Shown one piece after another: positions 3,001 to 27,603 of a stretch of DNA of 27,603 nt. Made by a program: the position numbers and the translations under genes. The notes beneath the pieces are model-generated. The model was not told the origin of the DNA and did no database searches. It worked only from the letters and a program-made list of their open reading frames with translations. How positions within the stretch are numbered: position 1 is the stretch's first letter; each line of letters starts with the position of its first letter. The DNA is from a virus. The stretch lies in IMG/VR virus record IMGVR_UViG_3300029787_000255, positions 1 to 27,603 of that record; one strand, given 5' to 3'.

Positions 3001-4252
3001 GAGTGATGCTCGTAATGAACTTTTACAAGGTATGCGAGAGCAGTTTGTTCTAGAACTAGAGCATGCTAAAACAAGAAAAGACTTGTCTCAAAAAGAGCTT
3101 GATAATCTTCAAAAGCTTATTGATAAAACAGATGCCGCTATTCAAAAAAATAACGAGTTTACGCAGTCGAAAATTGATGACGCAAACGCAGCCCGAAAAG
3201 AAGATCAAAAAGCATTTGAAACTCAGCAGAAGATTGACGCAGCGAACCGACGAGGCGACACTGTCGAAGCCGCTAAACTCCAAGCACAGGCCGAGTTTGA
3301 CGAGAAGAAAAAGAAGATCGATGAGTTGTACGATCTTGAGGATGCCGAGCAAGCAGCTGCCCATGCCACGGCGATGCAGAATCTTCGAGAAGAGCGGGAC
3401 GCTAAAATTGACGCAGCGAAGCAAGCCGGTAACGAAGCTAATGTGCAGGATCAGGCTCAACAGCAAGACAACCGAGCAGACAAAGCCCGCGAGCAGATTA
3501 AACACGAACAGGCAATCTTCGGAGAAAAAGCCAAGCAAGCTCGAACGGTCGGAACCCTGCTCCAACTTGAGCAGGCACGGATGGCAATCGAGGACAAGCG
3601 ATTCCAACGACTGAAGGAAGCTCAAGATAAGGCAGTGCGGGCCGAGAACAGCATTGCTGCAATCCGCGAAAAGCTAGAGAACGAAACCGATCCAGAAGAA
3701 AGACAGCGTCTACAGAAACTGTTGAACGAGCGAGAGTCCGACCTTGCTTTCGAGAGAGGGCGGGCCGACAGACTTGCAGCGGATGCGGGTGTTGAGATTC
3801 ACCAAGAGAAGCTGGATCAGCTAGAGTCACAAAAAGCAAAGATCCAACAAACTCTCGACGACATCCTCGCACTGAAAGCAGGACTTCAAACCAGACTCGA
3901 CGAGTTTGTCATGGTGTTCGGAGATGCGGGTGGTCGTATGGCAACCGCTATTTATGACGGAGGGGGAGGAGAGAGTGGCTTTGCCGCTAAGTTTGTCGGA
4001 AGCAAAGAGCAGATCAACGCAGCCCTGAACGCATGGACTCCGAGTGTGCAGACGTGGGCAGACGGATTCGCAATGATTTTTGAAAACTTAGCCACTGCCA
4101 TAGAGCAAGATCTTCAGAGAATAGTGTCTGCGGTGAATCAAGCAAATGCTGCAACTAGTTCATCGGGATCAGGTGGAGGTGGTAATACATTTATATCTAA
4201 CAACTTCGGAGGAGGTGCCGGAGCAGGTGGGGGAGGACCGGCCCGACCATAG
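2..4252 (+). CDS. Phage tail tape-measure protein (5' end outside window)
   Basis: This is the scaffold that sets tail length and helps DNA pass during ejection. The reading frame is open from base 2 with no stop, so the ATG at 113 is probably internal and at least 1,416 residues are encoded here. Numbered from base 2, residues 1-270 are Ala/Lys/Ser-rich with imperfect repeats. Residues ~272-480 match the TP901-type tape-measure core (an alpha-helical block starting KFQQSMANAF). Residues ~590-670 hold several hydrophobic, probably membrane-active segments. Residues ~790-1300 are Lys/Glu/Gln-rich coiled coil, followed by a Gly-rich C-terminus ending GPARP. At the usual ~0.15 nm per residue it would specify a tail of about 200 nm or longer. 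It opens the tail module, with structural genes directly downstream. The identification is firm; the true N-terminus is unseen. Confidence 0.92.
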   Translation, partial: GAAATQASAAIASTGKSAASVAKITTSSQVASASLSKMSAASTRVASALKPVSAVVTQFGSRFKKFAADTTFGREAINAYGVTAASLSAKVKAGQAALKKLSTSMKRAGASAVAAGTQLKSMATSAVQSAAKTKAAQMSIKGFNAVSTKLTASLTRAKASFADFGAKISAMGAKVGITRANLSKFGNGFISLAAKAKSSGAAILKAGMNAIKTSPMYLKLTASLKGAGTSFVALAAKAKAAGASMKAAGMAAMMAGGIILAALSPIIMVGAKFQQSMANAFAVIGDSRDINEGVSNMERLETTAKNLGKTTEFTATQVGEAFKFMGMAGMETNDIIAATPNILALATAGSMEIGRASDIATDTMTAFGLSMQDTGRIVDVMAAATLNSNMTLEQMGESLKYVSAAARGAGIPIEQVSVALGTLGSAGIKGSQAGTSLRMSIIKLTEVTDKGKDILTAYGLTYDDINPKVHGLEGALMALKNAGVQSQDIFAMFGARAGQSMNALIQNMDDFDRIQKAVMDNFGSAADMQAQKLATLGGEFKLFVSAVQGLSLSVFESVADDLSNMVKFFRELAQSAEAWTQRNQGLTASIFKMVGGVGAFLVIAGGLAMTMGMVSSIFGTLGGGIAKIAVVLKPVGVAIATFVAGLTAVKALIAALVAVVAGVLIATLISARTMFDNVARAIGTLYDATIGKFVEGFIEGFSRLGQELGPIMTASGQAFEQIGQAIEYVAGVVSSMLGDSFKNLGKTIANIGLDILVGTFELVRQGATAVAEMITSVVDTFIYYGKKLGLVSEDTETFAEQQKRLKTEFETIRPLLMEQVSNFEDNQKAIKEAGVELGTLVDTLGDASEASSFQLQAAANLRDKYGDLGQAIQKNIGIIQDEIKGREQLLQSETLSASKRQEVEAQLKKLRAQLSNMQQTQQQYNEALKNENNQLDSTKASLEQLTNKRKEEQKALEDLKAAHSSHADNVKKLHELEKEMAGDPTLENKYDERIRLIEEESDARNELLQGMREQFVLELEHAKTRKDLSQKELDNLQKLIDKTDAAIQKNNEFTQSKIDDANAARKEDQKAFETQQKIDAANRRGDTVEAAKLQAQAEFDEKKKKIDELYDLEDAEQAAAHATAMQNLREERDAKIDAAKQAGNEANVQDQAQQQDNRADKAREQIKHEQAIFGEKAKQARTVGTLLQLEQARMAIEDKRFQRLKEAQDKAVRAENSIAAIREKLENETDPEERQRLQKLLNERESDLAFERGRADRLAADAGVEIHQEKLDQLESQKAKIQQTLDDILALKAGLQTRLDEFVMVFGDAGGRMATAIYDGGGGESGFAAKFVGSKEQINAALNAWTPSVQTWADGFAMIFENLATAIEQDLQRIVSAVNQANAATSSSGSGGGGNTFISNNFGGGAGAGGGGPARP

Positions 4253-16443: not shown

Positions 16444-16492
16444 CCTATAAAACAAGGGTAAAAAAAACTTTTTAATTTTCTCTAAATCCCAC

Positions 16493-16520
16493 TTGACAAT
16501 GTAACCGATAAAGGTACAAT
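16493..16520 (+). promoter_or_regulatory. Sigma70-like promoter P1
   Basis: TTGACA (16493-16498) and TACAAT (16515-16520) are separated by 16 bases. An A/T-rich tract lies upstream (eight A at 16460-16467, then CTTTTT and more T), resembling an UP element. It occupies the 125-base gap after dnaB and would start RNA near 16527, about 40 bases before the ATG at 16569. The same layout recurs at P2. This is the clearest kind of promoter in the window. Confidence 0.85.
16505..16514. promoter_or_regulatory. Candidate operator in P1 spacer
   Basis: CCGATAAAGG within the spacer forms an ACC-6-GGT inverted repeat with its flanks and shares CCGATAA-x-GGTA with P2. Conservation inside a promoter spacer that is otherwise free to vary suggests a protein-binding site. 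The factor is unknown. Confidence 0.35.
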
Positions 16521-16568
16521 AAGAGACATACAAGTTACTAACAAACTTTGAAACAAGGAAACAAACCA

Positions 16569-16910
16569 ATGCTTCACCTCAACCCCGCAGAACAAGAAGA
16601 AGCAAACTTTCAAGTCGCCACCGATGCCGATTGGGATCGGGAGGAAGCCCGCGAGCTAGGTCAGTTGCATCCAGAGAAACCTTGGATCTTAACGGATCGA
16701 GATGCTTGGCATAAAAATCCAAATTACACTGGGCCTGCCGTGCCTCATCCCGAAGACGAGTGCTGGGAGCGTGAGGGTGAAGCACCAAGTTGCGATTGCC
16801 CCGAGACCCCTGCGTGTCATCAAGAACTTTGCGACGAGTGCCGCGCGGCATTCGAGCAAGATATGCTGAACCGAGAGCGAGTTGAAAATCCTGTCGATCC
16901 TCCCTTTTAA
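16569..16910 (+). CDS. Small acidic unknown protein behind P1 (113 aa)
   Basis: Not recognised. It is acidic, rich in Glu, Asp, Pro and Trp, with a cysteine cluster near residues 80-100 (C-x-C-x5-C-x4-C-x2-C) that could bind zinc. AAGGAA at 16555-16560 lies 8 bases before the ATG; the frame also opens at a TTG at 16548, but the ATG fits the ribosome site. It has its own promoter, P1, and is followed by a second promoter, so it may be expressed separately from the replication genes. Small, acidic, promoter-proximal phage genes often interfere with host functions, but nothing here proves that. Confidence 0.72.
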   Translation: MLHLNPAEQEEANFQVATDADWDREEARELGQLHPEKPWILTDRDAWHKNPNYTGPAVPHPEDECWEREGEAPSCDCPETPACHQELCDECRAAFEQDMLNRERVENPVDPPF

Positions 16911-16945
16911 GGGAGGCGGCGGGAAAAAAACTTTTGAGATTTTAC

Positions 16946-16973
16946 TTGACAACATTTCCGATAACGGTATAAT
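16946..16973 (+). promoter_or_regulatory. Sigma70-like promoter P2
   Basis: TTGACA (16946-16951), a 16-base spacer, then a perfect TATAAT (16968-16973). Seven A and CTTTT at 16924-16935 lie upstream as in P1. ACTTGACAA, CCGATAA, GGTA and AATAAGA are identical in P1 and P2. The leader also resembles P1's, with ACAAGGAA or CAAGGAAC before the start codon. It drives the gene at 17016 and probably the primase operon beyond. Confidence 0.88.
16958..16967. promoter_or_regulatory. Candidate operator in P2 spacer
   Basis: CCGATAACGG, an inverted repeat CCG-4-CGG directly before the -10 box. It shares CCGATAA-x-GGTA with P1 at the same distance from the -10 box. A regulator bound here would cover the promoter. 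Confidence 0.38.
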
Positions 16974-17015
16974 AAGAAAAGACAACAACGAACATTTGAA
17001 CAAGGAACCAAAGCT

Positions 17016-17420
17016 ATGATCAACAACATCTCACTCATCAACGATGGTCGCGTCCGAACGGAACTGATGACGGACATGGGAGGCGTTGCAGTCTTTTCCG
17101 ATAGTCCCACGGAAGACCAACTCCGCATCGGAGTTCTCTTCCGAGTTGCGATGCCCTTCCTCCAGTTGGCAACGAGGGGGAAGATCGTCATGGACGATGT
17201 CGTTCTTCTTGACGACGAAGGAACGGAAGACATCCATGTGGATGTCAAGTTCACGGATGCGAAGGGGAACATCGAGTGGCTCTGCTTTGTAGTGGATCGT
17301 AATACTTCCGACATTGAGCGTTGGGATTTTCAAGGAGGTCCGTTCTCCTGGGGAAGCATTGATCCGAGAATGGACAATGATCGTTTTGACACCAAGGTAA
17401 TGGAGGCATGGGGGGAATGA
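17016..17420 (+). CDS. Unknown protein behind P2 (134 aa)
   Basis: Not recognised. It is an acidic, mixed alpha/beta soluble protein without cysteine motifs, signal peptide or membrane segment. The middle has alternating hydrophobic strands (KIVMDDVVLLDDE, then DIHVDVKFTD). AAGGA at about 17002-17006 precedes the ATG by 9 bases. It is the first gene after P2 and overlaps the next gene by 4 bases (ATGA), so it probably leads the operon that carries the primase and later replication genes. Confidence 0.72.
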   Translation: MINNISLINDGRVRTELMTDMGGVAVFSDSPTEDQLRIGVLFRVAMPFLQLATRGKIVMDDVVLLDDEGTEDIHVDVKFTDAKGNIEWLCFVVDRNTSDIERWDFQGGPFSWGSIDPRMDNDRFDTKVMEAWGE

Positions 17421-27235: not shown

Positions 27236-27603
27236 CTAGCGGCAAATATGAGCCTCCTGCCGCACACCCCCCTCGACTTTTTCTGCAAAAAAGTCTCCGC
27301 TAAAGTTTTGATATTCTGCTCCTAGCAATGGTCCTGTTGTACCTAAGTGTTTATATAAGGTTTTAAAATCTACAGGATAATCGCAGTTATAAATTGATTC
27401 AGTTTCCCATAGTGTTGTGTTGTTGTTTGGATCTCCTCCCATGTTTGCACTAAAGAAAGTTCCTGCTCCGTCAACAATGACTGCAACTGCATCTTCAAAT
27501 CCACTATTGTAAAAACTTAATGCGGCGTGTAATTTGTGATGGAAATAACTCAAGTCAACAACTTGTGGGTGTTTAGGTAACAATTTAGGATTGCGATCAA
27601 TTA
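27236..27603 (-). CDS. Carbamoyltransferase fragment, NodU/CmcH family (incomplete at window edge)
   Basis: On the - strand the frame is open to the window end; its first track start, a TTG at 27583, is probably internal, with IDRNPKL before it. SYFHHKLHAALSFY carries the HHxxHA metal-binding motif of Kae1-like/NodU carbamoyltransferases, followed by AVIVDGAGTF and a family-like FKTLYKHLGT. These enzymes normally exceed 500 residues, yet this frame stops only about 100 residues after HHxxHA, at 27236. So the C-terminal part is missing or frame-shifted. Composition is about 30-35% GC over 27301-27420, against roughly half in the genes before it. It converges on the resolvase gene. It may be a degraded acquired gene or an assembly join; the family assignment is good. 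Confidence 0.72.
   Translation of the reverse strand, partial: IDRNPKLLPKHPQVVDLSYFHHKLHAALSFYNSGFEDAVAVIVDGAGTFFSANMGGDPNNNTTLWETESIYNCDYPVDFKTLYKHLGTTGPLLGAEYQNFSGDFFAEKVEGGVRQEAHICR

Follow-up and report, generated by a model that had tools for sequence, protein, structure and literature searches.

The window analysed here comprises 27,603 nucleotides (the whole stretch of DNA, positions 1 to 27,603 of IMG/VR virus record IMGVR_UViG_3300029787_000255), and it carries two similar promoter regions, designated P1 and P2, each located ahead of a small gene (Table 1). P1 (16493-16520) and P2 (16946-16973) lie 453 bases apart. Both contain a 16-bp spacer between the -35 and -10 boxes (ATGTAACCGATAAAGG and ACATTTCCGATAACGG, respectively), AAGA directly after the -10 box (TACAAT in P1 and TATAAT in P2), an upstream A-tract/CTTTT tract, and a leader ending in AACAAGGAA(A/C)C ahead of the ATG codons at 16569 and 17016. 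An earlier note on this DNA had described two promoters at this distance with a common tract, spacer element and leader, and this description is borne out by the sequence.

Table 1. Features of the P1/P2 region of the window, and positions of the related cassettes in the contig G001 (see text).
Feature	Position	Strand	Basis or remark
P1 upstream A-tract/T-tract, UP-element-like	16460..16486	+	sequence; A/T tracts also ahead of most G001 and G009 cassettes
P1 -35 box TTGACA	16493..16498	+	sequence, promoter scoring
P1 spacer element CCGATAAAGG	16505..16514	+	sequence, compound pattern, conserved in relatives
P1 -10 box TACAAT	16515..16520	+	sequence, promoter scoring
P1 leader GACATACAA ... AAACAAGGAAAC	16521..16568	+	leader-family similarity above controls; unit 16469-16568 repeated at G001 3240-3337
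P1 small gene, 113 aa, phrog_36991 (function unassigned there)	16569..16910	+	ORF, profile match
Hairpin CCTCCCTTTTAAGGGAGG over the stop codon of the P1 gene, upstream of P2	16899..16916	+	sequence; possible terminator without a U-run directly after; present in G001 too
P2 upstream A-tract/T-tract, UP-element-like	16924..16943	+	sequence
P2 -35 box TTGACA	16946..16951	+	sequence, promoter scoring
P2 spacer element CCGATAACGG	16958..16967	+	sequence, compound pattern, conserved in relatives
P2 -10 box TATAAT	16968..16973	+	sequence, promoter scoring
P2 leader AAGAAAAGACAAC ... AACAAGGAACC	16974..17015	+	leader comparison
P2 small gene, 134 aa	17016..17420	+	ORF; followed by a primase/SSB-like/polymerase/RecA run
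G001 cassettes	78862, 75305, 74917, 65640, 64561, 54933, 54690, 14547, 14103, 3701, 3301		in addition, HTH_17 promoter at 73591

Promoter-like sites were scored by their match to -35 and -10 boxes of the sigma-70 type (maximum 12). Eight such sites were detected in the 12-22 kb part of the window, the top two (12/12 and 11/12) being P1 and P2, with scores of 9-10 for the other six. The compound pattern of the two promoters was found across the window at P1 and P2 only, and there were no matches in 100 dinucleotide shuffles.

The genes behind the two promoters, as called by a simple ORF caller, are unrelated to each other. The P1 product contains a motif of 40-55 aa common to hypothetical proteins of Xanthomonas, Brevundimonas and Erythrobacter phages, and its presence in these unrelated phages makes it likely that the P1 gene is one of the small mobile genes of phages. 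For the P2 product there was no match, and no relatives are known outside the clade. The replication module of this lineage includes a PolA-type polymerase and DnaB/DnaC.

A nucleotide search of the window against annotated phages gave no match, and a host search by terminase, RecA and tRNAs revealed nothing close. The compound motif search identified one IMG/VR contig, IMGVR_UViG_3300030102_004647 (78,953 bp; hereafter G001), whose DnaB is 99% identical to that of the window. Comparison of related intergenic regions had been suggested as a check, and both P1 and P2 are kept at the same place in G001. A second close relative, IMGVR_UViG_3300029787_000068 (G009; 53,348 bp), shares 82-94% identity with G001 over the principal blocks of the alignment. 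Three further contigs (G004, G005 and G008) are collinear and more distant, with DnaB proteins 61%, 55% and 47% identical, respectively. At the right end of the window (27296-27603) the similarity to G001 ends at 27296, beside the hairpin GACTTTTTCTGCAAAAAAGTC; the position corresponding to the G001 cassette at 3701 would follow after about 60 bp. The DNA beyond 27296 is AT-rich and carries a carbamoyltransferase-like fragment on the opposite strand. This segment reflects either the exchange of a module at a cassette or a chimeric assembly.

Analysis of G001 revealed approximately 10-12 cassettes resembling the P1 and P2 units, located ahead of unrelated small genes (Table 1); one of them, at 65640, is without the usual leader. 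In G009 there were 11 pattern matches (one site matched twice), as opposed to none for the reversed control, and 13 sites were recognized on wider inspection. The family was also detected from k-mer counts in promoter spacers, evaluated against a random-window null. Among 22 G001 promoters found by their boxes alone, CCGATA was the commonest 6-mer of the spacer (9/22), and no 6-mer exceeded four occurrences in 300 random-window trials. The box-only promoters of G008 gave the same 6-mer independently of G001 (5/11, null maximum 3). The element was present in 9 of the 14 intergenic sense-strand promoter-like sites of G001 compared with 0/8 of those in coding or antisense positions, and at least 10 of the 12 element sites in this contig are in or beside promoters. 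Scans of viral contigs yielded 14 matches with the true element, versus 1 and 4 with scrambled-element controls.

The similarity extends beyond the promoters. A/T tracts precede most cassettes in G001 and G009, and leaders of cassettes with unrelated genes had a mean local pair score of 15.3; the corresponding scores were 8.7 when the leaders were shuffled at constant composition and 6.6 when other upstream regions were compared. A search with the leader only revealed no CCGATA-free leader at a plausible gene start; matches devoid of the element appear inside coding sequence. When the cassette was scanned together with its start region, multi-copy matches were obtained only in G001 and G009. 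Clear stems were observed at P2 and at the G001 cassettes 54690 and 75305, with a weaker one at 74917 and none at P1 and five others. That the upstream gene is terminated at each cassette would hold for some of them only, a clear hairpin being present at about 3-4 of 10 G001 cassettes. Among the small genes of G001 there is one (53455-53748) encoding a CsrA-like protein with an insertion after the first strand (MLVLSRKPEEKVVIS ... CsrA positions 13-52).

Several lines of comparison point to mobility of the cassettes. In the self-comparison of G001 (same strand, E<1e-3) all nine repeat pairs corresponded to cassettes, and nearly all repeats of G005 and G008 were cassettes or leaders. The 100-bp P1 unit of the window recurs elsewhere in G001 (3240-3337), where it precedes an unrelated gene (82% identity over 102 bp, E=1e-16). 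Comparison of G001 with G009 revealed 16 events of gene gain, loss or replacement, defined as gaps of at least 50 bp between collinear blocks, and in 7 of these a cassette is no more than 63 bp away, against an expectation of 1.36 (P=0.0002). Several of the 7 bear the signature of recombination. A 99-aa gene of G001 and one cassette (together 74948-75245) are missing from G009, and the single G009 cassette at 44182-44271 aligns to both G001 cassettes flanking this extra gene. Another G001 gene (64268-64497) is bounded by a 30-bp leader repeat and has no counterpart in G009. At G001 78862 and G009 47977 the cassettes are 95% identical, and the gene behind has been replaced. These comparisons support the view that recombination between cassettes mediates gene gain, loss and exchange. 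The earlier suggestion of a regulatory cassette duplicated with its leader fits the relatives as well, on a larger scale (about 10-12 copies in G001 and 11-13 in G009). Judging from these genome comparisons, P1 and P2 are not an isolated twin; they very probably belong to a dispersed family of recombining cassettes.

The part of the spacer that characterizes this family is asymmetric and always oriented along transcription. The dyad proposed in the earlier note (ACC-6-GGT; CCG-4-CGG) is present in both P1 and P2, and the family-wide constant part is instead the oriented asymmetric CCGATA--GG: in the cassette set defined by leaders, the two middle bases of the element vary and its right half is weaker. 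We consider it probable that CCGATAnnGG is an operator, i.e. a predicted protein-binding site, although a classical dimer operator does not require asymmetry and a fixed orientation, which counts against this reading. We infer that all the cassettes may be under the control of one factor. In two cassettes of G008 (57529-57631 and 63247-63346) the spacer copy is accompanied by another CCGATTTCGG, located about 30 bp farther upstream, as though the pair of sites were used jointly.

The best candidate for the reader of CCGATAnnGG, proposed tentatively from its gene sequence and promoter, is a small HTH_17/MerR-like protein of 89 aa encoded in G001 (73273-73542) and by an orthologue in G009 (97%). 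Its similarity to HTH_17 is weak (E=2.5e-5, narrowly missing the Pfam cut-off), and the HTH_17 family itself matches MerR profiles weakly. The promoter of the G001 gene has CCGATATCAG in its spacer, and that of the G009 orthologue has CCGATAACAG; the spacer pattern in both is CCGATA(T/A)CAG, and the leader is unrelated to that of the family. Other candidates were rejected: no link to the element was found for the ParB-like and replication-initiator HTH proteins, which are conserved in most or all relatives, and no orthologue of the DNA methyltransferase was detected in G004, G005 or G008. An N6/N4 DNA methyltransferase gene (G001 75790-76650) adjoins two of the G001 cassettes.

HTH_17 genes were also encountered outside this lineage. 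An unrelated phage contig (G011) contains three promoters (6650, 8876 and 9662) with CCGATAGCGG before the -10 box, and at one of them a second copy is located just downstream, ahead of an HTH_17 gene. In a Dehalococcoidia genome TTGACATATTAACCGATAACGGTTATAAT occurs eight bases before a 57-aa HTH_17 gene. A search with this 57-aa protein revealed homologues in 26 of 197 Dehalococcoidia genomes, and all 16 of their own promoters that were examined have a 17-bp spacer. A dyad with at least 5 of 6 pairs was present directly before the -10 box in 10 of these 16 promoters, compared with 3.6% of control sites, the controls being promoter-like sites rather than proven promoters and the homologues being related by descent. 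The arms of the dyads vary from gene to gene yet stay complementary (ACCG/CGGT, ACTG/CAGT, AGCG/CGCT, CCAG/CTGG and AGCAC/GTGCT). The tiny Dehalococcoidia proteins have K/R-rich tails, and their promoters are near-consensus, many of the genes being almost leaderless, with the dyad up to about 40 bp upstream. As the arms of the spacer dyads change together, autoregulation is supported, which suggests that the Dehalococcoidia HTH_17 proteins may regulate their own promoter through the spacer dyad.

The element could also be the operator of a regulator encoded by the host, the phage genes then following a host signal. An HTH_17 gene was not found in G005 or G008 (both of which have CCGATA promoters, and whose records may be incomplete), and ACCGATATCGGT-like dyads occur at the same place in some bacterial promoters, some of them ahead of regulator genes. 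These observations are set against the restriction of full-leader cassettes to the clade, with multi-copy matches confined to G001 and G009, and against the presence of the element in the promoter of a phage-encoded candidate. We regard a host regulator as unlikely.

We also think it improbable that CCGATAnnGG determines promoter strength, the host RNA polymerase or sigma factor recognizing it as an extra spacer contact or a DNA-shape element. It is indeed restricted to the transcribed strand and to strong promoters, it is common to phages whose DnaB proteins are only 47-55% identical, and in G008 its offset to the -10 box is fixed. However, among the G001 copies its first base is 2-7 bp from the -35 box and 10-14 bp from the -10 box, with the spacer near-constant at about 16-17 bp, so the geometry of such a contact would change from one copy to another. 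Since the position shifts by about 4 bp at a constant spacer length, direct contact with RNA polymerase seems unlikely and a protein-binding site is better suited. Moreover, the element is absent from other promoter-like intergenic sites. A general bacterial promoter element was rejected, as the collection scan gave only 44 scattered genome matches, mostly clostridial and several evidently within coding sequence; some of the 44 are in regulatory promoters with doubled operators.

The operator reading also agrees with the pattern of substitutions. Across nine pairs of orthologous cassettes, none of the 72 sites in CCGATA and GG differed, compared with 7/74 at the remaining spacer positions, among which the two middle bases were counted (one-sided Fisher P ~0.007). 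The -35 box did not differ (0/54) and the -10 box differed once (1/54); divergence reached 21% in the upstream region and 9% in the leader. The earlier note had tied its interpretation to conservation of the spacer element in relatives, which these 72 unchanged sites confirm. That P1 and P2 are alike by recent copying, the spacer element having no function, is very unlikely: many cassettes are recent copies, but the element is conserved while neighbouring spacer bases change, its position in the spacer differs among copies, and it is found again in distant relatives as well as in G011, an unrelated phage.

On balance, we favour the interpretation that a cassette of promoter, element and leader occurs in dispersed copies, P1 and P2 being two of them, that homologous recombination would swap the cargo behind it, and that CCGATAnnGG is most likely an operator. 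The predicted cassette, of about 100 bp, would consist of an A/T tract, a -35 box, CCGATAnnGG in a 16-17 bp spacer, a -10 box, the conserved start region GACATACAA and the leader AACAAGGA. On entry, the host sigma-70 RNA polymerase would read all cassettes as strong and probably early promoters, as the near-consensus boxes and UP-like tracts suggest. The copies appear, from sequence comparison, to have multiplied across the genome, and by homologous recombination from one copy to another small cargo genes would be inserted, lost or exchanged behind an unchanged switch, as the comparison of relatives also indicates. Since sequence identity among the cassettes would promote recombination, cargo genes would turn over under a common switch. 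A regulator, as it accumulates, might then cover the spacer and close every CCGATAnnGG promoter together, for example in early-gene shut-off or superinfection control; the HTH_17/MerR-like protein would regulate its own gene too.

It is conceivable, and we offer this as a speculative extension, that a changing cargo set is coordinated via one 10-bp oriented spacer operator on mobile cassettes, read by a very small protein of the HTH_17/MerR fold that is part of a wider, apparently undescribed class of minimal regulators acting through a dyad directly before the -10 box. Such an arrangement would show a way for a phage to exchange accessory genes and yet keep them under common control. A definite prediction follows from the spacer element, namely one regulator for about 10-13 promoters, and the additional findings on HTH_17 proteins with spacer dyads may point to the role of a widespread class of tiny regulators that lack annotation.

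Some features of the cassettes recall known systems. In promoters controlled by MerR-family proteins the operator dyad is located in a spacer of 19-20 bp, and these promoters are activated. The cassettes likewise have an operator-like element between the -35 and -10 boxes, and the candidate HTH_17 protein is weakly MerR-like; however, their spacers are 16-17 bp long and, unlike the activated MerR promoters with 19-20 bp, would be expected to be repressed on binding.

In cluster A mycobacteriophages (L5, TipsytheTRex), operators and stoperators are short asymmetric sites, distributed genome-wide and oriented with transcription, and are the presumed targets of a single phage repressor (PMC9283540). 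CCGATAnnGG resembles them as an asymmetric repeated site oriented with transcription; stoperators are also intergenic outside promoters, whereas nearly all copies here lie inside promoter spacers. The SAS/ESAS elements of cluster K mycobacteriophages are repeated, oriented and clade-specific, precede small genes, are read as protein-binding sites, and form an imperfect inverted repeat with stronger conservation on the left side (PMC3203893). The element described here is likewise repeated, oriented and clade-specific ahead of small genes, and its imperfect inverted repeat has the better conserved half on the left. SAS is found directly at translation starts; CCGATAnnGG lies between the promoter boxes, some 60 nt ahead of the start codon.

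The closest working likeness appears to be with the promoter early stem-loops (PeSLs), reportedly described by Arbiol in 2010 and Comeau in 2014. In PMC4503421 and PMC3950731, which cite that work, PeSLs are presented as 'mobile regulatory cassettes' of T4-type phages. The resemblance lies in the strong sigma-70-like promoters, the many dispersed copies before small variable genes, and the shuffling of genes by recombination between copies (indicated here by sequence comparison). Unlike the phages that carry PeSLs, the present lineage is not T4-type (about 79 kb, with a PolA/DnaB replication module); stem-loops that might serve as terminators accompany some of the cassettes and not others, which leaves the analogy incomplete, and what is constant beyond the promoter is a spacer element of 10 bp plus a leader. 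A promoter-like motif with an inverted repeat, located before most ORFs of one genome arm of the haloarchaeal virus HGTV-1, has also been likened to PeSLs (PMC3950731). It is comparable to the cassettes as a repeated promoter-like element with an inverted repeat, but it is an archaeal TATA-box with no sequence in common. By analogy, the cassettes of P1 and P2 would be a variant of this kind of arrangement and not PeSLs themselves, and with them the idea of a 'mobile regulatory cassette' would reach an unrelated uncultured lineage, together with direct comparative signs of cassette-to-cassette recombination.
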